DNA of 32,936 bases from a virus: positions 1 through 32,936 of the IMG/VR virus record IMGVR_UViG_3300044996_000076, one strand, 5' to 3'. This document shows, piece by piece, positions 2 through 27,968 of this stretch (position 1 is the stretch's first letter; each line of letters begins with the position of its first letter). Below the pieces are notes generated by a model, which made no database searches, was not told where the DNA came from, and saw nothing but the letters and a program-made list of their open reading frames with translations. The position numbers were made by a program, and so were the translations under genes.

Positions 2-1558
2 TTGAGGCCGAAGGCAGCATCGAGGGCGACGAGGATGCTGCTGACGAATAGGGCCGTAGAAGAGGAACGCACCCGGTGGCTCGCCCGCCTCTACGCCTGC
101 GAGGGACGTTTCGCCGATTTCTGCCGCGTCGCAGGCTACATCCCCCACGATGCCCAGCTTGACGTTCACCTATGCGACTCCCCGCGCCGCGTCGTGGACT
201 GGGGCCGCCGTACCGGCAAGACGCAGCTCGCCGCGATAGAGGCCGCATATACGCTTCTCCAGGACGACCGGCGGGTATGGGTAGTCTGCCCGACGCACGG
301 GCTCACAGAGCGCGTCTGGAGCGTCGTGACGAACGTCTTGTGCGTGAAATTGGGGTTCCGGCCATCTTCCCGCCGCGACACCTCTCCTCGGCGTCTCGCC
401 TTCGAGTGGGGCTCTATCTGTGAAGGGCACTCAACCGAACATGCGGCCCGCGCGGCAATGGTCGGGGCGGCGGTTGACCTGCTCATCTGGGATGAGTGCG
501 CCAAGAGCCCAGGCAGCCTATGGGAGACGCGCCTGCAGCCCAACCTCGGCGACCGCAAGGGCCGAGCGCTGTTTATCAGCACCCCCGAAGGCTACAATCA
601 CTTCTACGAGTGGTACAAACGCGGGGAGCAGGACCTCAGCGGAAAGACGCGCGACCCCGACTGGCGTTCCTTCCACGCCTGGTGCGAGGTCAACTTCGGC
701 AACGTGCCCGACCTGGAGGCATCCGTCGCCGAGGCCCGCCGCACGTTCGGCAAAGAACGCTTCGAGCAAGAATGGCTTGGTGAGTTCAGAACGTTCGCTG
801 GGCGCGTCTACCCGGAGTTCGACGAAGGGCTCCATTGCGACCGCGACCTCCAGTACAATCCCGACCTCCCGCTGACCCTGGCCTTCGACTTCGGCGTAGA
901 GAACCCATTCGTCTGCCTGTGGATACAATGGACGCAGGGTGACGAGATGAGGGTCATCGACGAGTACACTACCGCAGTCATCCGCGACGGGCGCGAGGAG
1001 GTCGTCCAGTCCCTCACGACGCAGGAAAACGGCGAAGAGGTCTTGCGCCAGCACGAGGATAGGGGGTATGGTGACTGGGAGTGGGCAGTCGCCGACCGGA
1101 GCGGAGCGGACGAAATACGGACCCTGCAGCGGCATTGCGGAATCCGGGCTATCTACAGGCACATCACACCAGACAACCGGCGGGAGCGCGAGGTACCGGC
1201 GGGCATTCGGCGGCTGAGGCGGTTTATCCGCGAGGGGCGGTTCCGAATCAACCCGGACCGCTGCCCGATTACCGTACACGAACTGAACCTCTACCGCTAC
1301 CCCGAAAGGCCCGAGGACCGCAACGCGCAGGAGGTGCCGGAGAAGGCCAACGACCACGCGGCCGATTGCCTACGCTACAGCGTCGCCTACTACCTCGCCC
1401 GCAACCCGAACGCGGACAGGTTCGAGGAGCGTGATGACGAACCCGTGGCGGAGGATGGGGTGATGAGGCTCCCGACTCCGCAGCGCCACAAGCTACCCGC
1501 GTTCGCGCCCGCCGAAGACCGCCTCGCTGAACGCATTGGCAGGAGGCACAGGCGATGA
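2..1558 (+). CDS. terL: Phage terminase large subunit (5' end uncertain)
   Basis: ATPase-nuclease motor that packages phage DNA into the prohead through the portal. From a TTG at the window edge it reads 518 residues. The N-terminal ATPase shows a Walker A-like GRRTGKT at residues 68-74, a Walker B VDLLIWDE at 158-165 and a coupling motif FISTP near 191-195. The C-terminal RNase H-like nuclease shows acidic residues in LAFDFG (D296), VADRSG (D365) and NDHAADCL (D451/D455). All motor and nuclease motifs are present, so the protein looks functional. The true start may be upstream of the window, the TTG, or the ATG at 35; no good ribosome site separates them. The stop overlaps the portal start (ATGA). 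No small terminase is visible. Confidence 0.95.
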   Translation: MRPKAASRATRMLLTNRAVEEERTRWLARLYACEGRFADFCRVAGYIPHDAQLDVHLCDSPRRVVDWGRRTGKTQLAAIEAAYTLLQDDRRVWVVCPTHGLTERVWSVVTNVLCVKLGFRPSSRRDTSPRRLAFEWGSICEGHSTEHAARAAMVGAAVDLLIWDECAKSPGSLWETRLQPNLGDRKGRALFISTPEGYNHFYEWYKRGEQDLSGKTRDPDWRSFHAWCEVNFGNVPDLEASVAEARRTFGKERFEQEWLGEFRTFAGRVYPEFDEGLHCDRDLQYNPDLPLTLAFDFGVENPFVCLWIQWTQGDEMRVIDEYTTAVIRDGREEVVQSLTTQENGEEVLRQHEDRGYGDWEWAVADRSGADEIRTLQRHCGIRAIYRHITPDNRREREVPAGIRRLRRFIREGRFRINPDRCPITVHELNLYRYPERPEDRNAQEVPEKANDHAADCLRYSVAYYLARNPNADRFEERDDEPVAEDGVMRLPTPQRHKLPAFAPAEDRLAERIGRRHRR

Positions 1559-7932: not shown

Positions 7933-7934
7933 CC

Positions 7935-8654: not shown

Positions 8655-8675
8655 CGCGCGGAAAGGGATAGGACA

Positions 8676-9542: not shown

Positions 9543-9581
9543 CGGGCGGCAGTAACCTCTATCGCTGAAAGGCGGTCAGAC

Positions 9582-10118: not shown

Positions 10119-10141
10119 GCAGGCGCGAGAGGAGACGAGAC

Positions 10142-10594: not shown

Positions 10595-10623
10595 CCCGTA
10601 GACCCTGAAGGGCGGTGACTGAG

Positions 10624-11211
10624 ATGGCGGCCCAAAAGCCTTCCTTGATTGCGACGGTCGCGGCGACCGACGCGAACAGTTACGTCACGTTGGCCTTCGC
10701 GGACCTGTGGTTCCGCGACGGGCTGGATGCTGACGACTGGATTTCGTTTGACGACGGGCTAAGGACCCGCGCGTTGATCGCCGCGACCTGCCGCGACCCC
10801 GAGAGTATCGACGTGCAGCTCAAGGCCCTGGGCGCGTGGTACAACAAGTTCGACTGGGTTGACCCTGAGCAGGCGTTGATGTTCCCCCGCAGCATAGACT
10901 ACGACGACAATGGCGACCTGGAGATTCCCGACAAGGTAGAGGAGGCGACCTGCCACCTCGCCTTGTGGCTGCTGCGTAAGCGGCGCGGGGACCTGGGGCC
11001 GGTTGACGTGGGGGCCATGCACTCGCAGGGAGTCGTGGCCGTCTCGACCGGCGCGGTGAACGTGAACACGTACCGTCCGGTCTGGTCGAACTGGCCGCAG
11101 GTGGTGAAGCTGCTCATGGGGGAGTTCCTGCACCGAGGGGCGACGACTATCCCCGGGCGCGGGACGGGGGCCTCGACCCGGCGTTGGTGGCAGAACAGCA
11201 TCGCGACGTAG
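10624..11211 (+). CDS. DnaT-like / gp6-type head-tail adaptor
   Basis: 195 residues from the ATG at 10624, preceded by GGCGGTGA at 6-base spacing; a GTG at 10615 is an alternative. The sequence fits the phage family annotated as DnaT-like ssDNA-binding protein: ATDANSYVTLAFADLWFRD, WISFDDGLRTRALIAATCR, then QALMFPRS, EIPDKVEEATCHLALWLLRK and a C-terminal VVKLLMGEFLHR helix. In phages this fold serves as the connector ring below the portal (HK97 gp6-like). Position after capsid/decoration genes and before a gp10-like protein supports head completion. Confidence 0.75.
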   Translation: MAAQKPSLIATVAATDANSYVTLAFADLWFRDGLDADDWISFDDGLRTRALIAATCRDPESIDVQLKALGAWYNKFDWVDPEQALMFPRSIDYDDNGDLEIPDKVEEATCHLALWLLRKRRGDLGPVDVGAMHSQGVVAVSTGAVNVNTYRPVWSNWPQVVKLLMGEFLHRGATTIPGRGTGASTRRWWQNSIAT

Positions 11212-11221
11212 GAGGTGCGGG

Positions 11222-11422
11222 ATGGCGAAGAGAAAATCGGCGCGCAGTGTAACTTCCATGAGGGGCCGGGCACGCCGCGCGGCCATGCAGATAACAAGCG
11301 TAACACCGTTCGGCAACAAGACGGCGAGTTTTCTTCGGTGGAATACTCTAGGGGCGTCCCCGCACTGGGGGGCGGTAAACCGGTCGTCTCGTAGGCGGCA
11401 GCGCAAGCGCCGCAGAGGATAA
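11222..11422 (+). CDS. Small highly basic protein (66 residues)
   Basis: ATG with GGAGGTG upstream, 10 bases after the adaptor. The product begins MAKRKSARSVTSMRGRARRA and ends SRRRQRKRRRG; a middle segment (ITSVTPFGNKTASFLRW) is more hydrophobic. Very rich in Arg and Lys, no acidic residues seen. It is the second of the five small basic proteins. A plausible role is nucleic-acid binding in the head or as a charge-matched assembly factor, but nothing in the sequence proves this. Confidence 0.65.
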   Translation: MAKRKSARSVTSMRGRARRAAMQITSVTPFGNKTASFLRWNTLGASPHWGAVNRSSRRRQRKRRRG

Positions 11423-11425
11423 CTC

Positions 11426-12127
11426 ATGCCCCTCTCCGCCGACAACCCGCAGGCCATCGTGGCCGCCCTCGCGCGACGTTCCGACGCGGCGGGCGTTGCG
11501 GCGCGGAAGGCGATGTTGGGGTTCGTTCAGCGTAGGGGCGCGCCTGCAATCACGACGCTGGCGAAGCAGAAGGCCCCGAAGCTGTTCCGCGACCTGGAGA
11601 AGTCCGGGAGGGACGAGCTGACCGCAGACGGGGCGAAGGTCACGTTCGGCGGGAATGCGGCAGAGTACGCGGCATCGGTTCACGAGGAACGCGGGCGCTT
11701 GCGCGGGCGGGTAGGCGCGGGCACAGAGCGGCGCGGGAAGCACGTCTACCGGGGGAGCGGAGTTGGCATCTCGAAGCGCGGCGGTGGGGCGAGCAACCCG
11801 GGCGAGTGGAACAAGCCCGCCCATTGGGGCAAGGGGACGAAGGGCGCGGTGACGGCCTGGGCCAACCGCGTTACGGCGCGCCGACCGTTTTACCAGGGCG
11901 CACAGGGGAACGACCTGATAGAGTGGAGTGGGCGACGCTGGCGGTTCCGGCGGGTTGACTACGCCAAGCGGTACCCGGCGAGCCGCTACCCGAAGGCGGG
12001 CCAGCCGCACTTCCTGTTCGGCGCGCCGAACTCGGCCTATGGCGAAAAGCGCCTGTGGCTGCTGAAGGAGATGGCGACGGTTGGCGTGAAGGCGGCGGGC
12101 GAGGCAGCGCGCAGGGGGAAGGCCTGA
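11426..12127 (+). CDS. HK97 gp10-like head-tail connector component
   Basis: 233 residues, ATG 4 bases after the previous stop. The N-terminal helix and a strand with YAASVHEERG (about residues 75-85) resemble the gp10-like family, in which Y-A-x-x-V-E/H precedes a large loop. The C-terminus QPHFLFGAPNSAYGEKRLWL, then an Ala-rich helix, matches the usual P-F/H-L-x-x-A ending. A basic Gly-rich loop (about 95-140, RRGKHVYRGSGVGISKRGGG) enlarges it beyond the usual 120-160 residues. Order adaptor, gp10-like, terminator, tail tube is standard. Its stop overlaps the next start. Confidence 0.7.
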   Translation: MPLSADNPQAIVAALARRSDAAGVAARKAMLGFVQRRGAPAITTLAKQKAPKLFRDLEKSGRDELTADGAKVTFGGNAAEYAASVHEERGRLRGRVGAGTERRGKHVYRGSGVGISKRGGGASNPGEWNKPAHWGKGTKGAVTAWANRVTARRPFYQGAQGNDLIEWSGRRWRFRRVDYAKRYPASRYPKAGQPHFLFGAPNSAYGEKRLWLLKEMATVGVKAAGEAARRGKA

Positions 12128-12444
12128 TGCTACAGACCACGCGGACGGAGTTCCAGAGGGCTACCGGCGTCGCCTCCGAGTGGGGGATGAAGCACAACGA
12201 AGACGACACACTCGCCTGCGTGGCCTACGGGTACTTCGAGCCGGTCTCGCTGACGCGGACGGTTACGGTGTACGGGGACGGGGCAGTGAAGGCATGGCGC
12301 TGGACAGGGAAGCTGCCCCGGGGTATCGACCTCTCGTCCGGTTGGCGGGCGAGGGCAACGGTGCAGGGCAAGGACCGCGAGTTCGAGGTGCAAAGCGCGA
12401 TGCTCGTCGTCGCGTGGACGGTCGAGCTGACGGAGGTGCAGTGA
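12127..12444 (+). CDS. Hypothetical connector-region protein (105 residues)
   Basis: ATG sharing one base with the preceding TGA (TGATG). The product has alternating hydrophobic strands (DTLACVAYGYFEPVSLTRTV, DREFEVQSAMLVVAWTVELT) with a WRWTGKLPRG turn, so it is probably a small beta-barrel. Head-tail stopper proteins are often about this size and located here, so a head-completion role is possible. No diagnostic motif; the call is by position. Translation is likely coupled to its neighbours since both junctions overlap. Confidence 0.6.
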   Translation: MLQTTRTEFQRATGVASEWGMKHNEDDTLACVAYGYFEPVSLTRTVTVYGDGAVKAWRWTGKLPRGIDLSSGWRARATVQGKDREFEVQSAMLVVAWTVELTEVQ

Positions 12445-12677
12445 TGGCCATGAAGTCCACCAGCTACAAGAACAGAAGCAAGGTTCGAGCTAGCAGGGCA
12501 TCGAGTACTGCTAAGAGCGCGTCTAAGACTGCCAGAGATAGAAGAAGAAGGCCATCTGTAAGGCGCGAGGCGAGAAGCAAGGCTTCTCTCTATCGTAGGA
12601 TGGCAAGCCAACAGCGCGGAAGGCGTACCGGCGGACCTAGCCGCCGCCATCGAAACTCAAAAGGTCGGTTCGCATAG
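12444..12677 (+). CDS. Small Arg/Lys/Ser-rich protamine-like protein (77 residues)
   Basis: ATG sharing one base with the previous TGA and preceded by GGAGGTG. Low-complexity basic sequence: KNRSKVRASRASSTAKSASK, ARDRRRRPSVRREARSKAS, RRMASQQRGRRTGG. Well over a third of residues are Arg or Lys; acidic residues are almost absent. Codon use differs from neighbours: AGA and AGG arginines, TCT/AGT serines and less G/C at third positions. It may be DNA-condensing, or may assist capsid or tail assembly. The different composition could mean recent acquisition or selection on RNA structure. Confidence 0.65.
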   Translation: MAMKSTSYKNRSKVRASRASSTAKSASKTARDRRRRPSVRREARSKASLYRRMASQQRGRRTGGPSRRHRNSKGRFA

Positions 12678-12686
12678 GAGTCTTCT

Positions 12687-13265
12687 ATGCCCGTCACCGA
12701 CTTCCTGCATGATGAGGCCGTGGTAGACGCGGTGTGCGACGAACTCAAGGCACACCTCCCGTCGTCCTGGGTGAACGAGGTCGGTGCTGGCGGAAACAAG
12801 TACTTCAGCCTCAAGCGCCTGGAGTTCGGCGACCTGCGGGACTACCGTTTCGATCCGGAGGAGTCCTGGCGCAGCATCGTTCCGTTAGTCTTCGCGAAGT
12901 CCACCGGGGCGATATGGCGCAGGGACTACAGCGGTATCGGCGGCAAGCAGGGCATTCAGTACAATGTCCGCGTCGTCCACGTCTGGAACCATGACCAGTG
13001 TCGCGACGTGACATCCGGCCAGTGGGTAAGCCCCGCGCGGTCGCGCTGCCAGCGGATGAAGAAGCTGAACCAGGCATGCTTCCAGGGGGCGACGCGCAAG
13101 CTCGACGACCCGACGCTTACCACCGCCGACAGCGGGGTTACGGCCAGCCTGTCGGTTGTGCGGTTCGTCGGTTCGTACCTGGAGGGGATTGAGGACCTGG
13201 ACCTCCTGCCGGGGCGCTACTACGGGGTGGCGGTGGACCTGGAGGTTATCACGGTGACGTTCTGA
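12687..13265 (+). CDS. Probable tail terminator / tail completion protein
   Basis: 192 residues, ATG with AGGAG upstream. An N-terminal helix (DEAVVDAVCDELKAHLPSSW) followed by alternating strands (WRSIVPLVFAKSTGAIWRRD, IQYNVRVVHVWNHDQC), and C-terminal strands SLSVVRFVGSYLEGI and GVAVDLEVITVTF fit the alpha/beta fold of tail terminators. It lies directly upstream of the tail tube gene, where terminators are usual. These proteins form a ring that stops tube growth and joins the head. No sequence signature makes this certain. Confidence 0.6.
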   Translation: MPVTDFLHDEAVVDAVCDELKAHLPSSWVNEVGAGGNKYFSLKRLEFGDLRDYRFDPEESWRSIVPLVFAKSTGAIWRRDYSGIGGKQGIQYNVRVVHVWNHDQCRDVTSGQWVSPARSRCQRMKKLNQACFQGATRKLDDPTLTTADSGVTASLSVVRFVGSYLEGIEDLDLLPGRYYGVAVDLEVITVTF

Positions 13266-13322
13266 GCCGTTGCCGGTTGCCGGTCGTGAGTCGCAGAGTC
13301 CAACAGAAGGAGGGGAGCCCCA

Positions 13323-14159
13323 ATGGCGCTGAACACCAACGCTCCCTATAGCGGCGAAGTCGAATACGGTCGAGTGGCGGGCGACGAACCCGGGGTTGCC
13401 GTCAACGGCGGTTCCCTCACCATCGACCCGCAGGTTGGGTACACTGACGGTATCGGGATGCAGCGGGCCTCGCACCGGAGCCACTACACGGGGGTCGTGT
13501 CCTACGACGTGGTCTACCCGGTGAAGGCGCTGCTGAGCGGGATGCTCCGCGCGTCGGCGAGCAACAGCGTTGCGGCAGTCGCCTGTATCGCCGGGACGCA
13601 GGACGGGGAGTGGACCCTATCCTCCTGCCAGCCCAGCGGTTTCACGGCGCGGTGTGCGGTCGGCGAGCCGTTGAGCGTGAACCTCGGGTACTGGGGCCTG
13701 CCAACGCAGACGGCGACCGGCGCGGCGCAGGGCGCACCTTCCACGAACGTGGACGTAGACGCCTGCGGGTTCAGCGTGGCCGTCGATACGGTTGACTACT
13801 TCGTGCAGTCCTGGGATGTCTCGCTGAACACCAACCCCGGGTGGTGGGTAGCGCAGAACCACACGACCTCCGACAGCGCGCCGGATGGAGTGCTGCTCGG
13901 CGTCCAGGAGGTAACGCTCCGGCTGTCCTGCGCGAAGCAGATACCGGACACGGTGGCGAAGTTCACGCCGGACGAGCATGACGAGGACATCGACGTGACC
14001 ATCATCGGGGTCAACCCATCCAACGCGGCGCAGATTACGTTCACCCTGTCGGAGCTGTGCACCCCGACCGAGACGGGCTCCCATACGGTCGGCGGACTGA
14101 AGGTCTGGGATTACGAGTTCACGGCAGCGAAGCAGCTCGGCGTGCTGACGGTCACGTAA
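13323..14159 (+). CDS. Major tail (tube) protein
   Basis: 278 residues, ATG with AAGGAGGGG upstream. All-beta sequence typical of tail tube proteins: SGEVEYGRVAGDEPG, HRSHYTGVVSYDVVYPVKAL, FVQSWDVSLNTNPGWW, VLLGVQEVTLRLSCAKQ, and a final VWDYEFTAAKQLGVLTVT strand. Tube proteins stack as hexameric rings around the tape measure. Position immediately before the chaperone pair and tape measure supports it. The Asp/Glu-rich DEHDEDIDVTIIG (about 217-229) could be an exposed loop. Length is somewhat above the lambda gpV core; no Ig-like extra domain is obvious. Confidence 0.78.
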   Translation: MALNTNAPYSGEVEYGRVAGDEPGVAVNGGSLTIDPQVGYTDGIGMQRASHRSHYTGVVSYDVVYPVKALLSGMLRASASNSVAAVACIAGTQDGEWTLSSCQPSGFTARCAVGEPLSVNLGYWGLPTQTATGAAQGAPSTNVDVDACGFSVAVDTVDYFVQSWDVSLNTNPGWWVAQNHTTSDSAPDGVLLGVQEVTLRLSCAKQIPDTVAKFTPDEHDEDIDVTIIGVNPSNAAQITFTLSELCTPTETGSHTVGGLKVWDYEFTAAKQLGVLTVT

Positions 14160-17214: not shown

Positions 17215-17421
17215 ATGAGACCCCCGACCCCGACAACTGTCCGCGTAAACCCCGTTTGCCGAACCTGCCCGAACCCGCCGCTGACTCCCGACGCCTGCCC
17301 GATGGCTCGGGAGTGCTTCGTCAATGGCCCCCAAGCGAGCGCGCGGCGGAACCCCGGTAAGCTGGCGAAACCGGACGGGCGCGGGGTACGGAGGGTCATC
17401 CGATACGAGGAGGGGACCTGA
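17215..17421 (+). CDS. Small Cys-rich protein (68 residues)
   Basis: ATG at 17215, chosen because it lies just after the putative promoter start; in-frame upstream codons at 17185 and 17194 precede that start. No Shine-Dalgarno is visible. Cys residues occur as VCRTCPN and ACPMARECF, a C-x2-C ... C-x5-C pattern suitable for a metal site. The C-terminus is basic ([19 protein letters not shown]). Function unknown; first gene of the accessory block after the tape measure. Confidence 0.55.
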
Positions 17422-17426
17422 CGGGA

Positions 17427-17735
17427 ATGCTTGGACACGCGCTGCAAGTCCCGCTGCCGGACGGCCGCACCCTGTGGGGCCTTGCCTGCCCCGAACACGG
17501 ACTGCGGTACTCGTGCCCCGAACGGCGCGGGGGCAGGTGGAACATGGCTGCGTTTGTCCGGCACAACGGACAAGCCACTCCGGTTCCCGGAGAGCGGATT
17601 GCGTGCAGCGAGTGCCGAGAGTACCTCGCCTATGCCGGTGGACGAGGCAGTTTTCTATACGTGCCAGACGTCTGTCTGGACCAACTCAGAGAGGTCGCGA
17701 GAGGCCTCGGAGAAGCAGAGGAGAGAGACGCATGA
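17427..17735 (+). CDS. Cys-rich hypothetical protein (102 residues)
   Basis: ATG with GAGGAGGGGA upstream, 5 bases after the previous gene. Contains [18 protein letters not shown] and [12 protein letters not shown], giving C-x9-C and C-x2-C, possibly with His as a zinc ligand, then [16 protein letters not shown]. Its stop overlaps the prepilin start (ATGA), implying coupled translation. Resembles small zinc-binding phage proteins, but no named family is recognised. Confidence 0.6.
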
Positions 17736-18355
17736 GACGAAACAGAGGTTTCACCCTGATTGAGCTGTTGGTCGTCATTGCGATCATCGCCATCCTGGCG
17801 GCGATCCTGTTCCCCGTCTTCGCGAAGGCGCGGGCGAAGGCGCGGACGGCCGGGTGCGCGTCGAACCAGCGGCAGATTGCGATGGCGCTCATCATGTACG
17901 CAGGGGACTACGACGGGAACTTCCCCTATAACGCCTGCTGCCCCGCCGGTTCGCGAGTCCTGTGGCAGGACATGCTCGCCAGTTACGGACCGAATGTCAA
18001 CCGCTGGGGAGACTTCTGGGGCTGCAAGGAGGGGATGAACTACAACCTCTCCTACTACATGGGCGGCGCGGCGAACGGGCGCTTCACCTTCAACATGGAT
18101 AGCGGGTCGCGGCAGGTCGGTATGTCGGTCAAGCACCCCGAGTCTGTAATGGCGACCGCCGAGACTACGACGTGGTCGGCCACGATGGCGAACGGGAACC
18201 CTGCGCCCTTCTACGTCGGCCCGCACAACGGCAGCACGAACATGAGCTTCCAGGACGGGCATGTCAAGCTGGTCTCGCCTGCATGGTTGCAGGATGAGTA
18301 CGATAACGGAACCGATGCGAACGGGCGCGGAGCGTGGTACTGGTGGTGGCGCTGA
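17732..18355 (+). CDS. Type IV prepilin / pseudopilin-like protein with H-X9-DG motif
   Basis: 207 residues. The N-terminus is a textbook class III prepilin signal: MRRNRG followed by [18 protein letters not shown], with cleavage expected between Gly6 and Phe7 and Glu11 at mature position 5. The hydrophobic helix continues into [20 protein letters not shown]. The globular part is rich in Trp, Tyr and Gly, and carries H165-x9-D175-G176 ([12 protein letters not shown]), the H-X9-DG motif known from prepilin-type proteins of planctomycete, verrucomicrobial and armatimonad bacteria. The protein should be processed by a host prepilin peptidase and sit in the inner membrane or a pilus. A prepilin in phage late genes is unusual. 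It overlaps both neighbours. Confidence 0.88.
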
Positions 18356-19341
18356 TGGCCCACCTTCTGTTCGTTCTGGCATTCGCGGCGCAGGCCGACC
18401 CAACCATCTACGGATGCTACGAGTCGGTCAACCGGGCCATGTATCCGGACCTTGCGCGGCTCTACTTCAGGGACCAGTACCGTCATGGGATGAGGAACGG
18501 AACCGTGAGCGGGAACACCTGCCATGCGTTCGGGCCGAACCAAGTGATTGGCCTCGCGCGGCAGGTTGACATGATGGTGGAAGAGGGGATTGCGACGCCG
18601 GGCGCGCCGATGTTGGCGCTGAGTCTGGACCCCAAGGACATCGCGGCCTCGAAGTCGTTAGCGCGCTACCCGGCGCGTTGGCCGGAACTGGTCTGCGGCA
18701 ACGTGGACGAACCGAACCCGAACCTGATTCGGGCCGTGCGGGAGAACGGGTCGGCAGCCTGGGCGGCGGGTGTCCGCAGCGGGACGGCCATTGCGGGCTA
18801 CAACCTCTACCTGGACCCCGAGAGCGTCAAGTACGACGGACACCTCGCCAACTGGCTCGATATGTGGATCGTGCTGGCGTCAACATGGCAACCGAGCCTG
18901 CATCGGAAGGCGCTTGAATCGACCGCTGACCTGTGCGCCTACTGGTCCTATCCGCGCGAACCCGACCGCGACCGCTACGTGTCCGGGTTGTGGTGCTGGA
19001 AGGCGAACCCGAAGGTCTTCTACTACTGGGCCTACACGCACGATCCGAACACGGGCATCCTGCCGAACGGCGTCAGGCAGCACGCGAAAGACGACGACTT
19101 CTCGTTCGTGTACCCGTCGCCGGATGGTCCGGTGAGTACACCGGCATGGGAAGCGGCTGCTGAGGGCATACGAGACCACGAGTTACTTGACCGGCTGGCG
19201 GAGAAGGGCGGGAGTGAGGCGTGGCTGTCGGAACTTGCGAACAGTCTGCCGGACATCTGCCCCGTGCCGCCGAAGCCGACACCGTTCATGGATTGGAAGA
19301 CGTTGCGTCGCGAATGCCTGAGGAGGCTACAGGAACCGTGA
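18355..19341 (+). CDS. Secreted GH123/DUF4091-like protein
   Basis: 328 residues from the ATG sharing a base with the prepilin stop. Residues 1-14 ([14 protein letters not shown]) look like a short signal peptide with an AxA cleavage site. Family cues are GNVDEPN with an Asp118-Glu119 pair like the catalytic pair of GH123 N-acetyl-beta-galactosaminidases, GLWCWKANPKVFYYWAYTHD at about 211-230, and FVYPSPDGPVSTPAWEA then EGIRDHELL at about 251-278. The last matches the DUF4091 ending (F-x-Y-P-x-x-x-G-P-x-x-S...E-x-x-x-x-G-I-x-D-x-E). It is shorter than full GH123 enzymes and lacks an N-terminal beta domain. Possible role: trimming host surface polysaccharide. Activity is inferred. Confidence 0.7.
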   Translation: MAHLLFVLAFAAQADPTIYGCYESVNRAMYPDLARLYFRDQYRHGMRNGTVSGNTCHAFGPNQVIGLARQVDMMVEEGIATPGAPMLALSLDPKDIAASKSLARYPARWPELVCGNVDEPNPNLIRAVRENGSAAWAAGVRSGTAIAGYNLYLDPESVKYDGHLANWLDMWIVLASTWQPSLHRKALESTADLCAYWSYPREPDRDRYVSGLWCWKANPKVFYYWAYTHDPNTGILPNGVRQHAKDDDFSFVYPSPDGPVSTPAWEAAAEGIRDHELLDRLAEKGGSEAWLSELANSLPDICPVPPKPTPFMDWKTLRRECLRRLQEP

Positions 19342-19904
19342 TTGAGTTCCGTGAGGACCAGGGCAGGACTCCCCATGTCGGCGACGGGCTCATCCGCGAC
19401 CTGTGGCTGGCCGAGGCGAACATCGGGCGTATCTGGTTCCCTCGCGGTGTCACAGACCGCTGGGCGCAGGCGTTGACGATGGCGCTGCGGAGGCTGCGGG
19501 GTGAGCCGGTGATTGAGGTCCTGATAGACTGCGATGGAGGAGAAGGTCGCAGCTTCGAGCCCTGTCGAGAACTCTGGTGGAGGTGGAATAGACGCCTGAA
19601 CACCATCTCCACCGTCCTCGGCCACGCCCATTCGGTCGGCCTCAGCTACTCGGTCTGCGCGACGACTCGGCTGGCCTATCCCGACGCGCACTTCATGGTT
19701 CACGGAGAGCACCTGCGAATAGGACCGATGCACGAGAACGGGCACTTCCTCGAAGACCACTATGCGGCGGATTGGCTAGCGCGGTTCACGAAACGGACCT
19801 ATGAGGAGTGGCTGGCATACATTGCGGACGGAGTGGAGCACGGGTTCGGGGTTGACGAGGCGCTGGAGTGGGGCGTGATTGACGAAGTCCTGGAGGGAGT
19901 CTGA
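19338..19904 (+). CDS. ClpP-fold serine protease-like protein
   Basis: 188 residues from GTG overlapping the previous TGA; an ATG at 19314 is an alternative. The ClpP pattern is clear: EVLIDCDGGEG (like INSPGG) at about 60-70, GHAHSVG with candidate nucleophile Ser99, FMVHGEH with catalytic His122, and FGVDEALEWGVIDEVLE at the C-terminus. The catalytic Asp is probably in the LEDHYAADW region. In phages such proteins are usually prohead proteases beside the portal; here the gene is 16 kb away in a block of accessory genes. It could process virion or host proteins. Identity is good; substrate unknown. Confidence 0.75.
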   Translation: MIEFREDQGRTPHVGDGLIRDLWLAEANIGRIWFPRGVTDRWAQALTMALRRLRGEPVIEVLIDCDGGEGRSFEPCRELWWRWNRRLNTISTVLGHAHSVGLSYSVCATTRLAYPDAHFMVHGEHLRIGPMHENGHFLEDHYAADWLARFTKRTYEEWLAYIADGVEHGFGVDEALEWGVIDEVLEGV

Positions 19905-20191
19905 TGGAACGCGAGTTCACGGTATGCGCGGTCGGCCTGCCGAATGGGGTGCTAGTCGGCATCTACCCGGAAGGTGTACTCTCGGAAACGACGCCCGGAG
20001 TCGGTTTCAGTGAAGTCTTCAGTCCGCTCAAGCAAGTGACTGTGCCCGGCGGCGTGGACTTCGAGGAACGGGTCAAAGAGGCCGGCCGCGAACTCATAAA
20101 GTGGGCCAAGGATCGGGAAGCCGAGCGCGCGGTCGCCCGCAAGTTCCGGGATTGCGCGAATGCCGCATTGAAAACACTGGAGGTCGTCTGA
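19904..20191 (+). CDS. Hypothetical protein (95 residues)
   Basis: ATG sharing a base with the preceding TGA, with GGAGGG just upstream. The N-terminal half alternates hydrophobic residues (TVCAVGLPNGVLVGIYPEGV) and the C-terminal half is a charged helix (FEERVKEAGRELIKWAKDRE, ARKFRDCANAAL). No family recognised. Tight coupling to the ClpP-like gene suggests a related role such as an adaptor, but that is inference. Confidence 0.6.
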   Translation: MEREFTVCAVGLPNGVLVGIYPEGVLSETTPGVGFSEVFSPLKQVTVPGGVDFEERVKEAGRELIKWAKDREAERAVARKFRDCANAALKTLEVV

Positions 20192-20192
20192 C

Positions 20193-21143
20193 GTGACCTT
20201 CAACACCTCCTTCCGCCCGACCGGCTACCGCGACCTGCACCTGGGAGGCGCGTGGAACGCCTATCTGAATTGGCTTGTAGCAGCGCGGTCGGGCGGTGAG
20301 TTCGTGCTTATCCAGGACGACCTCTGGATGCACTACGGGGCGACGGGGCTGTCGGGCTTCGGACCTCGGGAGGGGATGGAACGGTATGCGGAGGACCTTG
20401 CGTGGCTCGGTATGCCGCCGAACCGCTGTCACCTGTCGAGCGAGAACCGCGAACGCCACTTGTGGGCCAACGCGAAACTCGGGTACCGGGAGCCCTTGGT
20501 CATCGGGCAGATGCCGATACTGTCAACGCCAGTCCGGCGGATGCTGAACCCATGCGACTTCAACGACCGGCTGCCGCCCGCCCCTGGCCTCGGGATTGAG
20601 GGCTACATCTATCGTAGCGATACGACCTTCAGCCCGTGGCACCTGACCTGCTGCGTCGTGGACTCGGTGGATTTCAGAATCAACGCCTGGGTAGCGGGGG
20701 ACGACCAAGTCCTCTATGACGCGCTCTGCATTGACCTCTGCCAGCGTCTCGGGTACCCGCCCCCCCTCTCTTTCTATCACCCGAACGTAAAGCGAACGGA
20801 GGCCGTTGACAAGCTGAGCAAGAGCGGGGAGACGGTCACGATTCGTGACCTGCGCGCGGCGGGCTACACGGCGGAGTCCATCCTGAGCACGCTGATGGAG
20901 TGCAGCCGCCTGAGCTACAATGCGGGACACCAGTCGGTCGTTCTGCCGGAGGGGGTCCTGGAACTCGGAGCGGAACCCTGGCGTTCGGACCGCGCCCCGT
21001 GGCTCAGGCACCGCAACCCGGACCTGGAGGATTGTGCGGCGGGCATAGTGCCAGAGGACCGGAGCCCCGACGAACGGGCTGCAATCATGGCCGAGGCGCA
21101 ACGCCGTCTGCGGGAGGGTGTCGATGCCGTGCGAACTCTCTGA
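20193..21143 (+). CDS. Glutamyl-tRNA synthetase-like protein (catalytic domain only)
   Basis: 316 residues from GTG with GGAGGTC upstream. It follows the class I synthetase Rossmann core of GluRS/GluQ: FRPTGYRDLHLGGAWNAYLN at 7-26 (HIGH-type HLGG, 16-19), a metal-loop-like variable region, SPWHLTCCVVDSVDFRINAW then VAGDDQVLYDAL at 147-178, and the KMSKS-type KLSKSGETVTIRDLRAAGY at 207-225. It lacks the anticodon-binding domain, as does GluQ (YadB, about 300 residues). The usual R-I-E-D after the first motif is replaced by IQDD, so activation may be altered. It may charge a tRNA, modify tRNA as GluQ does, or aminoacylate another substrate. A phage copy is unusual. Confidence 0.78.
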   Translation: MTFNTSFRPTGYRDLHLGGAWNAYLNWLVAARSGGEFVLIQDDLWMHYGATGLSGFGPREGMERYAEDLAWLGMPPNRCHLSSENRERHLWANAKLGYREPLVIGQMPILSTPVRRMLNPCDFNDRLPPAPGLGIEGYIYRSDTTFSPWHLTCCVVDSVDFRINAWVAGDDQVLYDALCIDLCQRLGYPPPLSFYHPNVKRTEAVDKLSKSGETVTIRDLRAAGYTAESILSTLMECSRLSYNAGHQSVVLPEGVLELGAEPWRSDRAPWLRHRNPDLEDCAAGIVPEDRSPDERAAIMAEAQRRLREGVDAVRTL

Positions 21144-23001: not shown

Positions 23002-24833
23002 AGGCAACGGTCTCGGGCGTAGACTACCCTCTCGTCGCAACCTCTGACGCGGTGTTCCGGGTCGGGGTCCTCCAGAACGACTCCGACCCGTTGTTGTTTG
23101 CCCTCGTGCTGGACGACGGCCCGGCTCCGTGGGGCTGGGGGCGGCGCGTCCTCGGGAAGACCTCGTGGGCGGCGGCGGGAGACTACGCGGCGGCGGACTC
23201 CGTGGTGTTCCGCATGGGCTGGGCACCGGGTACGATCACGATCCAGAAGGGCGGGGTTGCTCAGGCGAGCGTGTATGCCGAGCTCGTGCTGACCTACTCG
23301 ACCTCAGACGGGGTGCATGAGGCCTGGTGGCAGCCCGCGTACCCATCGAAGGCGGGGTCAACCTGGGGCGCGGCGGAGGGGCGCTTCCAGACGGACGGCA
23401 GCGGCATCCTGTGGGATGTCACGACCGGCTCGGCGCTGCCGATTATCGTACCTCGCGGGTTCGGGGCGCTCGGCTATAGGTCGGCGGCTACGGATGGCTG
23501 GCCCGACTGCCCCGAGGCCGAACGCCTGCTAACCGGGGTAGAGGTCTGGTACCTGCAGGAGTCCGCGCCTGTGAGCGAGGGAGCGAGCACGACGCTGAAC
23601 GTGGCCTCCTGCGAGCTGACCGTAACCGGCCCGGTCGGGGCTCAGATAATCGCCTACTGGGAGGGCGCACAACGGAGGGCGGCCCATACCATCCCGATTG
23701 GCGGGTCGCGCACGCTGACTGGCCTGCCGCCGGGCGAGTACGCGGTTGCCGCATTTCACCCCACTGACACGACCAAGGAGGTTCCGCGCGGGTCTACCAC
23801 GCTGGCCGCAAACGGCGGGACCGGAACCGTCGCGCTGGGCTCCTGGGTAGACCATAGCGCAGACAGCGTAATCCTCGTGCGGGCCTACCTGGATGGCTCG
23901 GCTGACCGCGCGGTCGGGGCGGCGGTCTGGAAGAGACGCGGCACTCCCTCCGTCTGGGAGCAGGCCGGAACAACCGACGCCAACGGCGAGGTCACCGTCT
24001 CGATGACGGGCGGCGTAGCGCAGATTCGGATCATCGACGACCGAGGGTGCGCGGTCACGACGCAGGTCCTCAGCGCGGGAGAAGTGTGGGACCCGCAGAT
24101 TACCTTCCGGATCGGAGTTTGCCGGTCGGCGACGTGGTCGCCCCAACCCGCCTACGTCGAGGGGCTGCTGCCCTGGGGGAACGCGGGAGTTCACCCGAAC
24201 CTGGAACTCGGCGGGCCACCCGCGTACCTGCAGAACGAGTCCAGCGGGGACCAGTACCAGTTCGCGGATGCAAGCCTCGGGAACGGGTACATGAGCGAGA
24301 CGCTGCCGCACACGGTGCTTGACCTCTCGGGGACGACCATTCCAGCCTCGGCCCTGCAGTCCTACAGCCTATACGACATGGACGACACGCTCATCTCTTC
24401 GGGCTGGCAGATGTGGCCGGTCGCGGACCCTCCGTGGACTCCGGCTTCGCCGTCCTGGTGGGAGAACCTGACCGAGGGGCGTCCGGTCTACGGGGCAGTC
24501 GGCGGCAAGATTGCGGGAAACGTGGTGGAGGCCTCTCGCGGGGACCTGGTGACCGTGGACAACCTTCGCGAGGCGGCGCGCATGGGCCTGGAGACCGGCA
24601 AGTTCACGCAGCCCTTGGAGGTGCGCTCGTACTCCGCGACGGCGGCGCTCAGCACCCGACCGACGACGTTCACCTCCGCCGAGTGCCCATACTGCGGGGG
24701 GCCTGTCTGGAGCGAGCCAGATGGCGGAGGATACCAGCGAGGGTACTGCATCCCCTGTGCCGCGAACGGGGCGATAGTCGATGCCCGCCCGTACTTTCTG
24801 ACACAGACATTGAGTGCGCTTGACGACTGGTGA
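22863..24833 (+). CDS. Large tail structural protein with beta domains and a C-terminal zinc ribbon
   Basis: 656 residues, ATG with only a weak G-rich site upstream. Beta-rich N-terminus (LAVGDQLRFDGAEGTVRAVT, VLQNDSDPLLFALVLDDG). Around 240-400 are Ig-like or carboxypeptidase-regulatory-like repeats (TLNVASCELTVTGPVGAQII, LTGLPPGEYAVAAFHPTD, AGTTDANGEVTVSMTGG). The C-terminus has a zinc ribbon AECPYCGGPVW ... GYCIPC. Such proteins occur among distal tail, baseplate and fibre components. Position before the hub region agrees, but the methyltransferase and propeller genes separate them. No enzymatic domain recognised. Confidence 0.65.
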   Translation: MGVLAVGDQLRFDGAEGTVRAVTSTTDANGRGTVTYGGSTFHFRALKATVSGVDYPLVATSDAVFRVGVLQNDSDPLLFALVLDDGPAPWGWGRRVLGKTSWAAAGDYAAADSVVFRMGWAPGTITIQKGGVAQASVYAELVLTYSTSDGVHEAWWQPAYPSKAGSTWGAAEGRFQTDGSGILWDVTTGSALPIIVPRGFGALGYRSAATDGWPDCPEAERLLTGVEVWYLQESAPVSEGASTTLNVASCELTVTGPVGAQIIAYWEGAQRRAAHTIPIGGSRTLTGLPPGEYAVAAFHPTDTTKEVPRGSTTLAANGGTGTVALGSWVDHSADSVILVRAYLDGSADRAVGAAVWKRRGTPSVWEQAGTTDANGEVTVSMTGGVAQIRIIDDRGCAVTTQVLSAGEVWDPQITFRIGVCRSATWSPQPAYVEGLLPWGNAGVHPNLELGGPPAYLQNESSGDQYQFADASLGNGYMSETLPHTVLDLSGTTIPASALQSYSLYDMDDTLISSGWQMWPVADPPWTPASPSWWENLTEGRPVYGAVGGKIAGNVVEASRGDLVTVDNLREAARMGLETGKFTQPLEVRSYSATAALSTRPTTFTSAECPYCGGPVWSEPDGGGYQRGYCIPCAANGAIVDARPYFLTQTLSALDDW

Positions 24834-24835
24834 CG

Positions 24836-24864
24836 TTGACTCCGGGCAGCCGATGAGGTATACT
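24836..24864 (+). promoter_or_regulatory. Strong sigma-70-type promoter of the methyltransferase gene
   Basis: TTGACT (24836-24841), 17-base spacer, TATACT (24859-24864): five of six consensus bases in each box. It starts 3 bases after the upstream stop. The expected start near 24871 coincides with the first base before a long RNA stem, so the transcript would begin directly with the structured leader. Confidence 0.75.
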
Positions 24865-24870
24865 GTCTAC

Positions 24871-24977
24871 AGGCTGAGGTAGCAGTCGCAATCCAGACCG
24901 GATACGCGCTTTGCCCCGCGCCCGGGTGGCTGCTACCTCAGCCCCCAAACGCGGGGCATTCTACTTTGAGGTGCAAA
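24871..24977 (+). promoter_or_regulatory. Structured leader with two interleaved inverted repeats (possible pseudoknot)
   Basis: Repeat A: 24872-24885 (GGCTGAGGTAGCAG) pairs perfectly with 24930-24943, extendable to 18 pairs with G-U (24872-24889 with 24926-24943). Repeat B: TGCCCCGCG at 24912-24920 pairs perfectly with CGCGGGGCA at 24950-24958. The order A5'-B5'-A3'-B3' means they either form a pseudoknot or compete. Repeat B ends 9 bases before the GAGGTG ribosome site (24968-24973) of the GTG start at 24978 and is followed by a T-rich stretch, so it could act on translation or early termination. The repeats might instead be a binding site for the ParB-like protein. Confidence 0.65.
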
Positions 24978-26090
24978 GTGGAACCAAAGGTAGACCCAGA
25001 CTTTCAGAAGCTGTTGCCCCCTCTTTCGTCGGGGGAACTCAACGAACTCGAAGCCTCAATTCGGGATGAGGGCATACGCGAACCCCTCGTTTTATGGCGC
25101 GGGGTGCTGATTGACGGGCACAATCGTTTTGATATCGCAAAGAAACACGGCCTGCCGTATCGTACGACTTCGTTGGACTTTGAGGACCGAGCGGCCGCCA
25201 GAAAATGGGTCATACGTAACCAACTTGGGCGACGCAACCTCACCGCCGATTGGGTAAGCTACCTGAGGGGCCAGGAGGTGAAGGAAGCGCCGAGAGAGGC
25301 GGGGTCAAGGACCGACACCTCGGGAAAAAATGTCACAAGGTTACAGGAGCTTGCTGGCGAACATGGTGTTGACCGGAGAACACTGCACCGCGATGCCCAC
25401 TTCGCCGAGGCTGTAGACACCGTGGCGAAAGCGGCTGGAGAGGATACCCGCGATACTCTCCTATCCGGCAAACTGACCCGCGAGGAAGTAAAGAGGCTCT
25501 CCCAGATTGCAGAGGAACGTCCGTGCGACGTTCGGGCTGCAATCATGGAGACTAGCGACAAGCCGCCCGCAGAAGCGCGGAAGACCGAGGCGTGGCAGAA
25601 CATCCACTCGTCGAAGTCTAACGAATGGTATACGCCGGAGGAATACATCGAGGCTGCCAGACGGGTACTCGGCAGCATTGACGTTGACCCGGCCTCAAAC
25701 GAGGAGGCACAGACAAACGTCGTCCGCGCGGAGACGTACTACACTGAACAGGAAGACGGGCTGGCCTACGACTGGCGCGGTACCGTGTGGCTGAATCCGC
25801 CGTGGGGCAAGGAACACCCGCAGTTTGTGGAGCGGCTCCTCAATCAGTACGCGCGGGGCAACACAACGGCGGCGATACTACTCGTCAACGCGCACTCGAC
25901 AGACACGGCATGGTTCCAGCCGCTATGGAACCACATCCTCTGTTTCACCGACCACCGAATCAACTTCTACGGGTCAGAAGGTTCCGGGTCAACGCACGGA
26001 AGCGTGTTCGTTTACCTGGGGCCAGACCGCAAGGCATTCGCAGAGGCATTCTCTAAGTTCGGGGCCGTTGTGGAGCGCTATCATGCCTAA
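24978..26090 (+). CDS. ParB-like domain fused to phage Dam N6-adenine methyltransferase
   Basis: 370 residues from GTG, with GAGGTG 4 bases upstream; a TTG at 24966 is less likely. Residues about 1-85 are a ParB/Srx-like domain: LSSGELNELEASIRDEGIRE, VLIDGHNRFDIAKKHGLPY. A helix-turn-helix part follows (LQELAGEHGVDRRTLHRDA, 122-140). The C-terminal part is a phage-type Dam methyltransferase: NEWYTPEEYIEAARRVLGSI then DVDPASN at 215-241, and catalytic NPPW at 273-276, plus ILLVNAHSTDTAWF. It should methylate adenine in DNA, protecting phage DNA or marking it. It has its own promoter and structured leader. Codon and A/T content seem slightly higher than in neighbours. Confidence 0.88.
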   Translation: MEPKVDPDFQKLLPPLSSGELNELEASIRDEGIREPLVLWRGVLIDGHNRFDIAKKHGLPYRTTSLDFEDRAAARKWVIRNQLGRRNLTADWVSYLRGQEVKEAPREAGSRTDTSGKNVTRLQELAGEHGVDRRTLHRDAHFAEAVDTVAKAAGEDTRDTLLSGKLTREEVKRLSQIAEERPCDVRAAIMETSDKPPAEARKTEAWQNIHSSKSNEWYTPEEYIEAARRVLGSIDVDPASNEEAQTNVVRAETYYTEQEDGLAYDWRGTVWLNPPWGKEHPQFVERLLNQYARGNTTAAILLVNAHSTDTAWFQPLWNHILCFTDHRINFYGSEGSGSTHGSVFVYLGPDRKAFAEAFSKFGAVVERYHA

Positions 26091-26487
26091 CCTTCGTAGC
26101 AGGGACGCATACCGCGACGCAGCGTGGGATTGGTCGTGCCTGGACGGGTGCTTCTCCGGCTCGATACGCCCCACCGACATTGACGGCCTCGTTGAGAGGA
26201 AGGGACACGCGCTGTTTCTCGAAGCGAAGCCGCCCAACGGGTATCTGACGGTCGGGCAAGAACTGACATTCAAGTCCCTTTCACGCAAGCCGCTTCTATG
26301 CGCGATAGTCTTCTTCGGAGAGGACGGGAAACCACCGTCCATTGAGCGGATTGACTTGTACCAGAATGGTGTTTGCCGAAGCCTCGGCGGTGCGTCATTC
26401 GGGCTGCTGCTGGAGGTGGTTTCGTCGTGGTACAAGCACGCCGACTCTGGTGTGCAGTCCGAGTTTGAGTGGCGCGCCCACGCTTGA
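26083..26487 (+). CDS. PD-(D/E)XK nuclease-like protein (VRR-NUC/HJR type)
   Basis: 134 residues, ATG overlapping the methyltransferase stop by 8 bases. The sequence SGSIRPTDIDGLVERKGHAL then FLEAKPPNGYLTVGQEL shows the PD-(D/E)XK core: Asp34, Glu47-x-Lys49 and a following Gln59, as in phage Holliday-junction-resolvase-like or VRR nucleases. A C-terminal helix (ASFGLLLEVVSSWYKHA) completes it. Pairing with a DNA adenine methyltransferase suggests a DNA modification or processing pair. The stop TGA lies inside the -35 box of the next promoter. Confidence 0.75.
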   Translation: MPNLRSRDAYRDAAWDWSCLDGCFSGSIRPTDIDGLVERKGHALFLEAKPPNGYLTVGQELTFKSLSRKPLLCAIVFFGEDGKPPSIERIDLYQNGVCRSLGGASFGLLLEVVSSWYKHADSGVQSEFEWRAHA

Positions 26488-26512
26488 CCTTCCCCCGTGA
26501 AACTGCTACCCT
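26484..26512 (+). promoter_or_regulatory. Promoter of a leaderless transcript (propeller gene 1)
   Basis: TTGACC (26484-26489), 17-base spacer, TGC-TACCCT (26507-26512). Only 6 bases (TTCCCC) separate the -10 from the ATG at 26519, so transcription should begin at the A of the ATG. No Shine-Dalgarno exists there. The upstream stop TGA (26485-26487) is inside the -35 box. Confidence 0.72.
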
Positions 26513-26518
26513 TTCCCC

Positions 26519-27649
26519 ATGCAAACCTTCGTCCGCAACACGACGGCAGGCGGGCACGCTGACCGACCCGTGACCGGCTGGCCGCGCCCCGCCGAATACT
26601 ACGAGACCGATGACTACCTCGTTGACCCGTGGGCGGACGGCCTGCCCCGCTGGGTAGCGGTCCATATCGTCCTCGGCTCCCTCGCGGGCGGCGTGTTCAT
26701 CGACGGGGAGTCCATCGCCGCCGCCGAGGCCCGCGTCGGAGACACCATCGGGCCGGTACAGTTGAAGCTCAAGCTGACCGCCGATTACATGGGCTCCGGC
26801 AAGACGGTACGTGTCACCGCGACCAACGCCTACACAGGGGCCGCCGACGTGCTGGAGGCGACGGTACCGCAGGGCGCGGACTCGGGGGACCTCGTGTTCC
26901 TGAAGTGGGCTCCGCACGACGAGTACCCTGGCGCGCGGAACTGGTACACGGACGTGACCGCCGTCAGCGAGGTCTCCGGCGACGGCTACCTCGCCTGCCA
27001 GATAGTGAACGACGGCCCTTCCTGGCGCAGCAGCACCGGCGTGATTGTCCTCCACAACGCGCACTCCCCCTATGCCGTAGACGCGCGCCTGGGCGGGCGA
27101 GACCCGTACATGGTGACCGAGGCCCGCGTGGGCACGGTCCACCTCGTCTATCTGCGCGACGGGCAGGTTATGCACTCCGTCAAGGAGTTCGGGGAGGCGT
27201 TCGCGGACCCGTACTCCGTGACGCAGCGGGCGAACTGGGCCGCCGCTTGCCGACGCCCCTGCATCGGGCGGCTGTACCAGGGCGGGGCGCTCCTGTGCTC
27301 GGCGACCTCCAACGGGGCGACGTGGTTCTGGCGCTCGCAGACCAATGGCGACTCCTGGGAGACGCTGACGAACATCCCTGTAGAGTACGCCCAGTGGTTC
27401 GTCGAGCCGCGCACCGAACTGCTGCACCTCGTGGGCCTCCAAGGCGGCGCGGTCGTCTACTCATGGTCCGACACCAACGGGCTCTACTGGTCCGCGCCGG
27501 AGACGGTGGCGACCTCAGACGGGACGGTCCCTCCAACAATCACGCGGCAGGGCGCGAGGCTGTACGTTCAGGCATACGTGGGCGGGCGCACGCGGACCTA
27601 CAGGTATACGGGCGCGGAGTGGCAGCTTGCGGGCAGCCTCGGCACTTGA
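26519..27649 (+). CDS. Asp-box (sialidase/BNR propeller-like) protein
   Basis: 376 residues, ATG without ribosome site, placed 6 bases after a -10 box. The N-terminal part is a beta domain (ADGLPRWVAVHIVLGSLAGG, GKTVRVTATNAYTGAADVLE). The C-terminal half looks like a beta-propeller: repeated strands such as GTVHLVYLRDGQVMHSVKEF and LLHLVGLQGGAVVYSWSDTN, with Asp-box motifs SQTNGDSW (273-280) and SDTNGLYW (317-324). Asp boxes occur in sialidases and many other propellers. No sialidase Arg triad is evident. It could be a carbohydrate-binding virion spike or tail fibre. Shares motif type and promoter with the next gene. Confidence 0.65.
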   Translation: MQTFVRNTTAGGHADRPVTGWPRPAEYYETDDYLVDPWADGLPRWVAVHIVLGSLAGGVFIDGESIAAAEARVGDTIGPVQLKLKLTADYMGSGKTVRVTATNAYTGAADVLEATVPQGADSGDLVFLKWAPHDEYPGARNWYTDVTAVSEVSGDGYLACQIVNDGPSWRSSTGVIVLHNAHSPYAVDARLGGRDPYMVTEARVGTVHLVYLRDGQVMHSVKEFGEAFADPYSVTQRANWAAACRRPCIGRLYQGGALLCSATSNGATWFWRSQTNGDSWETLTNIPVEYAQWFVEPRTELLHLVGLQGGAVVYSWSDTNGLYWSAPETVATSDGTVPPTITRQGARLYVQAYVGGRTRTYRYTGAEWQLAGSLGT

Positions 27650-27674
27650 CGCGCGGCGCGGCGTGTGCTACCCT
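27646..27674 (+). promoter_or_regulatory. Promoter of a leaderless transcript (propeller gene 2)
   Basis: TTGACG (27646-27651), 17-base spacer, TGC-TACCCT (27669-27674), then 6 bases (TCGGTC) and ATG at 27681. Same -10 sequence and same 6-base gap as at 26519, and again the upstream stop TGA (27647-27649) is inside the -35 box. No Shine-Dalgarno precedes the ATG. Confidence 0.72.
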
Positions 27675-27680
27675 TCGGTC

Positions 27681-27968
27681 ATGCTCGCAGACACGCTTTC
27701 CCGCACCGAACTGACCGGCGTTGTCGGCCTGCTGTACGCGGCGGGCCTGTCGGGCGGGAACGGGTACGCGGCCTTCAGCGAGGACTCGGGCGCGACGAAC
27801 TACGAGGCCCCGGTGAAGGTGGCAGACGACGTAGACGAGGAGAACCCCGCGCTGACCCTCGGCCCGGGCGGCGAGTGGTTCTCGGCGTTCGTCCTCGGAG
27901 ACAAGGTTCGCGTCTACCGCAGCCGGGATCACTGCGGTAGCTGGGCAGTCACCCAAACTCTACAGTAG
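27681..27968 (+). CDS. Small Asp-box protein (95 residues)
   Basis: Start ATG 27681 is set by the leaderless promoter spacing; no ribosome site. Two Asp-box-like motifs, SEDSGATNY (33-41) and SRDHCGSW (81-88), separated by strands (NPALTLGPGGEWFSAFVL, DKVRVYRSRD), give one or two propeller blades. Too short for a full propeller; it may oligomerise or be a remnant. It is related in motif to the preceding protein and probably arose from the same kind of module. Confidence 0.6.
   Translation: MLADTLSRTELTGVVGLLYAAGLSGGNGYAAFSEDSGATNYEAPVKVADDVDEENPALTLGPGGEWFSAFVLGDKVRVYRSRDHCGSWAVTQTLQ

Follow-up and report, generated by a model that had tools for sequence, protein, structure and literature searches.

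How do two adjacent genes in the tail region of a phage come to begin without ribosome sites, each behind a promoter that appears to be built on the stop codon of the gene before it? We examined this in a linear virus record of the IMG/VR type, a single metagenome record of 32.9 kb (32,936 nt; "the window" below is the whole of this stretch), which encodes terminase, portal, head and tape-measure genes. The two genes in question, both on the + strand, are P0001 (26519-27649, 376 residues) and P0002 (27681-27968, 95 residues, a small Asp-box tail protein). The explanation that we regard as probable is that of a gene in pieces, in which a tail gene would have been severed by an inserted cassette and the genes downstream of the cut would restart from leaderless promoters.

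The two starts share one promoter layout. Promoter 1 (26484-26512, + strand) comprises TTGACC at 26484-26489, a 17-nt spacer and TACCCT at 26507-26512, followed after 6 nt by the ATG at 26519; promoter 2 (27646-27674, + strand) comprises TTGACG at 27646-27651, a 17-nt spacer and TACCCT at 27669-27674, followed after 6 nt by the ATG at 27681, and at both the -10 is extended by a preceding TGC. The initial annotation had located both promoters with these same coordinates, spacers and distances to the ATG, and in this it was exact. The -35 of promoter 1 includes the TGA stop of a putative nuclease gene (26485-26487), that of promoter 2 the TGA stop of P0001 (27647-27649), and the gap from stop to ATG is exactly 31 nt at both sites. 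When the sites are aligned on their ATGs, the promoter positions (TTGAC and TGCTACCCT) are identical at 14 of 14 and the others at 5 of 21, which is chance level. Promoter parts are the sole bases that the sites have in common above chance, the leaderless-type layout proposed in that annotation is supported, and their likeness at promoter bases only points either to an old copying event after which the promoter alone was kept or to separate selection at each site.

A chance origin of the motif was considered and dropped, given the results of shuffling and the rarity of the pattern in 291 Armatimonadota genomes. The full pattern, TTGAC-N15-TGC-TACCCT-N6-ATG, occurs exactly twice on both strands of the window, at ATGs 26519 and 27681, and TTGACS-N15-19-TACCCT has two matches in the window against 0.02 expected, a number reached in 0 of 100 shuffles. 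A loose leaderless form (TTGAC, 16-20 nt, TANNNT, 4-9 nt, ATG or GTG) recovers the same two sites only, again on both strands; in 300 first-order Markov shuffles it matched 0.15 times on average and never more than twice, and the strict form had 0 matches. Across the 291 genomes TTGAC-N18-TACCCT-N6-ATG occurs 8 times, with candidate open frames of at least 185 codons behind six of the matches, and the controls, a reversed pattern and one with the ATG shifted 7 nt further, gave 3 matches each. For so rare a pattern, two copies 1.2 kb apart are not a matter of chance. The exact twin promoter core was also present at 11 loci in viral contigs; at five of these one and the same 4-codon frame recurs in near-identical contigs, and the others precede frames of 412, 412, 228, 76, 70 and 44 codons. 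Counted as distinct sequences or pairs, four promoter-core loci have frames of at least 70 codons, with no evident relation to tail genes.

Neither start has a Shine-Dalgarno sequence. Their anti-Shine-Dalgarno duplex energies (+0.4 and -2.4 kcal/mol) are the weakest among 29 starts tested in the window, the other 27 ranging from -4.5 to -12.2 kcal/mol, and this agrees with the earlier contrast between these two genes and their neighbors. As TACCCT ends 6 nt ahead of both ATGs, the spacing fits a transcription start at the start codon, and RNA polymerase should begin on the ATG itself or no more than one or two bases away from it, so that the mRNAs would be leaderless. In the available text of the two sources consulted, leaderless genes in Actinobacteria and Deinococcus-Thermus are marked by a TANNNT element about 12 bp before the start (PMC3160421; PMC12340547), and both starts in the window combine the two traits by which such genes are recognized, the lack of a ribosome site and the spacing of a TANNNT-type -10. 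The likeness to these genes lies in the TANNNT -10, the 6 nt to the ATG, the missing ribosome site and the high-GC genome; the difference is that the window presents a pair of neighboring tail genes in a phage, and their relatives either start from ribosome sites or have no start at the corresponding place. A further prediction from the literature is that leaderless starts are confined to the first gene on a transcript, so that a leaderless mRNA has to begin at a promoter of its own (PMC3160421). Genes that lack ribosome sites and lie mid-operon, as here, are out of reach of the usual route of initiation and need their own promoters, which the two 31-nt units would supply.

The same trait was sought more widely in the presumed host phylum. 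Among 991 genes, TANNNT stands 6 nt before candidate starts in 12 cases, as compared with about 8 at other upstream distances and a background of 2.4; genome-wide, the count is 411 at 5-7 nt against 319 at 15-17 nt, with reversed-pattern controls of 98 and 73. This host-wide test is weak, and general leaderless use in the phylum is not demonstrated by it. A term search of the available text found neither Armatimonadetes nor OP10 in PMC3160421, and no Armatimonadota in PMC12340547. At one locus (L168, genome G008), two host genes have the phage layout, TTGACG-17-TACAGT or TTGACG-17-TAGAGT followed after 6 nt by ATG.

The gene that begins at promoter 1 proves to be part of a longer one. P0008 (22863-24833, + strand, 656 residues), recognized by its homology to the related genome G277, can be aligned from end to end (residues 4-656, 41%) with the N-terminal part of a 1,022-residue ORF there, and the match to P0001 residues 4-280 follows the P0008 match in the same frame, 9 nt apart. 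P0008 accordingly corresponds to the N-terminal and P0001 (residues ~4-282) to the C-terminal part of a tail protein of about 1,050 residues when intact. At the junction G277 reads ...LSADEGW-QTRWVRNTTAG..., where the window reads ...LSALDDW-stop (stop codon at 24831-24833), then 1,685 bp, then M-QTFVRNTTAG... from the ATG at 26519, which is the first start codon of the P0001 open frame (382 codons) and lies just ahead of the conserved region. The cut falls exactly between Trp656 and Gln2, and as compared with G277 no residues of the tail protein are lost.

Five relatives (L110, L112, L114, L115, and L116), the loci in which homology to P0008 was checked, have the two parts within a single frame. 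A profile of the P0001 (P1) family has matches in 30 of the 291 Armatimonadota genomes; all 30 loci were fetched, 27 could be judged on their 5' side, and in 26 of these P1 has upstream of it an open frame that is 500 codons or longer. The fused state is most likely ancestral, judging from these comparisons. In genome G255 the same junction is split into two adjacent genes with no insertion, which suggests that it tolerates being cut. As in known genes in pieces, an uninterrupted orthologue exists in relatives and both pieces are intact, each with its own start and stop; we infer that the two assemble into a working protein, with a probable role at the tail tip. Third-position GC is 0.88 and 0.85 in the two downstream genes, which indicates that both still evolve as coding genes, and single-sequence structure models of P0001 and P0002 were poor (mean pLDDT 39.8 and 43.1).

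What separates the two parts is a 1,685-bp insertion (24834-26518) between the P0008 stop and the P0001 ATG, absent from the fused relatives and, in our reading, the probable cause of the split. A sigma-70-like promoter, TTGACT-17-TATACT (24836-24864, + strand, 10 of 12 consensus matches), lies 2 nt past the P0008 stop and would serve the methylase and nuclease genes that follow. Sites of the form TTGACN-16..18-TANNNT number four on the + strand of the window, as compared with 0.34 expected, and three of these four TTGAC-class matches fall exactly at the three new gene starts. Behind the sigma-70-like promoter, a perfect 14-bp inverted repeat forms a leader hairpin (24872-24943, + strand; arms 24872-24885 and 24930-24943); the leader as a whole (24866-24985) folds at -61.1 kcal/mol (z -5.0), and a second hairpin covers the Shine-Dalgarno sequence and GTG start of the methylase. 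The methylase gene (24978-26090, + strand), with its GTG behind GAGGTG, encodes a ParB-like domain and a Dam adenine methyltransferase (PF05869 Dam, 1.7e-13), and over 24966-26090 it matches PHROG 111 DNA methyltransferase (2e-34) and PHROG 4715 ParB-like (1.4e-4). Overlapping it is the gene of a 134-residue putative nuclease (26083-26487, + strand), whose TDIDGLVE...FLEAK is PD-(D/E)XK-like by eye and which has a weak match to PHROG 5702 Holliday junction resolvase (E 0.032); the nuclease assignment is a weak one. Methylase and nuclease genes are adjacent in 5 of the 14 viral loci recovered with either protein (three of the five look nearly identical), which suggests a recurring unit. We also considered whether the leaderless promoter travels with this pair, an idea that was dropped, as the promoter is absent at all five pairs examined.

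Given that the insertion falls precisely between two codons, and that its removal would restore one frame, the 1.69-kb insert might instead be a self-splicing intron, with a full-length tail protein made after splicing and the promoter of P0001 incidental. Endonuclease-bearing introns are indeed known in phage tail genes (PMC10448857, available text). However, a search of 24700-26700 for Rfam families, group I and group II introns included, found none even at E values up to 1, the window as a whole gave none at gathering thresholds, and an intron would leave the identical promoter at P0002 unexplained. We consider splicing very improbable here.

A second rearrangement affects the end of P0001. 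All six of the aligned P0001 relatives stop where, in the window, a domain resembling P0002 begins (residues ~283-376; 27365-27646, + strand; identified by its similarity to P0002). The ancestral P1 stop is gone in the window; P0001 has a P2-like domain fused to it, and P2-like sequence occurs a second time as the separate gene P0002. The initial annotation had described the two proteins as related, which holds at a modest level (32% over 73 residues, E 0.002, from a single comparison), and as Asp-box proteins, a label that appears to stand by way of the P2 family, 6 of the 7 members of whose alignment match PF02012 BNR; of the two proteins themselves, P0001 has no match to the BNR model and P0002 none to Pfam. 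The P2 profile also meets PDB sialidases at about 5e-5. In these matches to BNR and sialidases the family resembles Asp-box/BNR sialidase-like beta-propellers, but it differs from them in its length of only ~95-100 residues and its place in a phage tail module.

In relatives, P2 genes of about 100 residues lie directly after P1 and before a homologue of P0004 (28184-30577, + strand, 797 residues, 37% in G277), the next conserved tail gene of the module. This arrangement bears on a further claim of the initial annotation, that P0001 and P0002 are morons with promoters of their own, whose expression could be separate from that of the late operon, perhaps during lysogeny. Each gene does have a self-contained promoter and no ribosome site. 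Their relatives, however, are core tail genes in fixed order and in place within the module, one fused to the gene upstream and the other provided with a ribosome site, and the accessory-looking unit is the methylase/nuclease cassette just upstream and not the Asp-box genes. The moron reading is therefore one that we hold to be highly unlikely.

The module P8-P1-P2-P4, as traced by its P1 part, occurs in the same 30 of 291 Armatimonadota genomes (L250-L279), which are mostly list-order neighbors, and it is perhaps a domesticated phage, a tailocin or a gene transfer agent. In G277 (L110, reverse complement, 7169-13400), 3.9 kb of accessory genes lie between P1 and P2, and a methylase and a toxin-antitoxin-like pair lie between P2 and P4; a protease-like gene is also among the accessory genes of this stretch, and these names were given by eye from the translations. 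Accessory genes at these places suggest that the tail module is a landing zone.

The start of P0002 itself offers a comparison between modes of initiation. In the alignment it falls on the GTG at which the G277 homologue begins (MLADTL in the window, VLADDL in G277), and that GTG is preceded by GAGGAGGTGATCC, a strong ribosome site. All 18 of the P2 relatives with a resolved start have ribosome sites (-5.0 to -13.4 kcal/mol, 17 of them at -9.2 or better), and the pairing of -2.4 kcal/mol at P0002 is weaker than in every one; the 18 comprise 16 relatives together with G277 and L117, L260 having been left out as its script-chosen start (+0.9) falls inside the gene. The promoter pattern is absent at all 16 P2 relatives scanned. 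The earlier annotation had named a start conserved in relatives with a ribosome site as evidence that would tell against its reading, and such a start was found for one of the two genes, P0002; its conservation in G277 suggests that the phage changed its initiation mode at that position.

These relatives mostly have gaps of -4 to 8 nt before the P2 start, which suggests ancestral coupling, and with gaps as small as those in the window, both proteins could conceivably arise from the polycistronic late mRNA through termination-reinitiation across the 31 nt, with little contribution from the promoter motifs. Such an account does not explain why a ribosome site should be missing at just these two of 29 starts, or why only the promoter positions are conserved between them, and we regard it as unlikely.

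The host was approached through gene content. A protein with a prepilin-type N-terminal motif (window 17324-18355, start probably near 17729) is of a type common in Armatimonadota, and, with the best loci kept, 73 of 79 loci matching it carry Armatimonadota or allied names, a tally in which Zipacnadia and WS1 are included as what we take to be allies of the phylum. The nearest relatives of the tail genes are likewise in Armatimonadota genomes, the whole-protein searches having covered Armatimonadota only, and together these observations point to a host of the Armatimonadota type. Tblastn of P0001 and P0004 against phages gave no match, an A2 profile search of viral contigs gave none, and pattern scans found no P0001 or P0004 relatives in viral contigs and no P0001 relatives in genome contigs. 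Between the tape measure gene and P0008 (window 19221-21143) lie a Clp-protease-like gene (PF00574, E 0.0019, below the cut-off) and a class I tRNA-synthetase-like gene (PF00749, 2.6e-8, above it), and inside another gene (6494-7642) a direct repeat about 90 bp apart is 78% identical (6686-7096).

Two contigs, L002 and L003, are near-identical to the window (99.89% and 99.87%), but the compared stretch stops at window positions 10909 and 11555, so that they are uninformative about the cassette; for L003 the comparison covered 10,373 of 13,098 bases. No second copy of the split region was found, and the split therefore rests on a single metagenome record. The tail gene might then be simply broken, with P0001 and P0002 left over and decaying in an element that is defective or domesticated, as the single record and the spread of the module through a group of host genomes would allow. 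Against such decay, no residue is missing from either half at the cut, coding composition is strong and the new start signals are intact; we find it quite improbable.

We favor, as a probable account, a gene in pieces. A gene for a tail protein, perhaps a tip protein or adhesin, would have been interrupted at a domain boundary when a cassette inserted there, bringing its own promoter, hairpin leader, ParB-Dam methylase and putative nuclease. The cassette would supply the stop of P0008, and a new ATG would open the second half. This half and P0002, both without ribosome sites, would each be started by a 31-nt stop-to-start unit, in which the upstream TGA serves as part of the -35 TTGAC and the extended -10 TGC-TACCCT follows after 17 nt. 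Transcription from promoters presumed active at both sites would begin at or near ATGs 26519 and 27681, yielding leaderless mRNAs to be translated as such, and the halves of the tail protein may reassemble as separate polypeptides in the tail.

Among split-gene systems, the closest precedent appears to be nrdA of Aeromonas phage Aeh1, together with the promoter-carrying cassettes of T4. In the available text of PMC2988022, Aeh1 nrdA is split by mobE and its pieces reassemble, T4 topoisomerase gene 60 is split by mobA, and T4 endonuclease cassettes can carry promoters for downstream genes. The likeness to Aeh1 nrdA/mobE and T4 gene 60/mobA is that of an accessory gene within a phage gene, leaving two coding regions that need reassembly, and T4 endonuclease genes and the window methylase both have starts under RNA structure (PMC2988022). 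In contrast to these systems, the cassette in the window consists of a Dam methylase and a putative PD-(D/E)XK-like nuclease, it targets a tail gene, and the half that is cut off would start from a leaderless-type promoter built on a stop codon (PMC2988022). Homing nuclease genes, including those of the PD-(D/E)XK type, are also described as bordering phage tail operons (PMC10448857, available text), whereas the window nuclease is paired with a Dam methylase and lies inside the coding sequence of one protein.

More tentatively, we hypothesize that phages may repair a severed operon in this way, the upstream stop becoming part of a -35 and a leaderless start growing behind it. Such a unit would have arisen or been copied twice, side by side, after the cassette broke the tail gene, and two virion genes would have moved from coupled, ribosome-site translation to leaderless translation. 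This is a possibility that we hold with some doubt, and our search of the accessible papers found no report joining a leaderless start, a homing endonuclease and a split gene. If true, it would show how evolution can restore expression to an interrupted gene at little cost, and how a gene can switch from ribosome-site to leaderless initiation, with the states before and after both visible in related genomes. It would also offer a concrete test, from the phage side, of whether genes are expressed leaderless in Armatimonadota, and would add a case of a tail protein tolerant of production in pieces.
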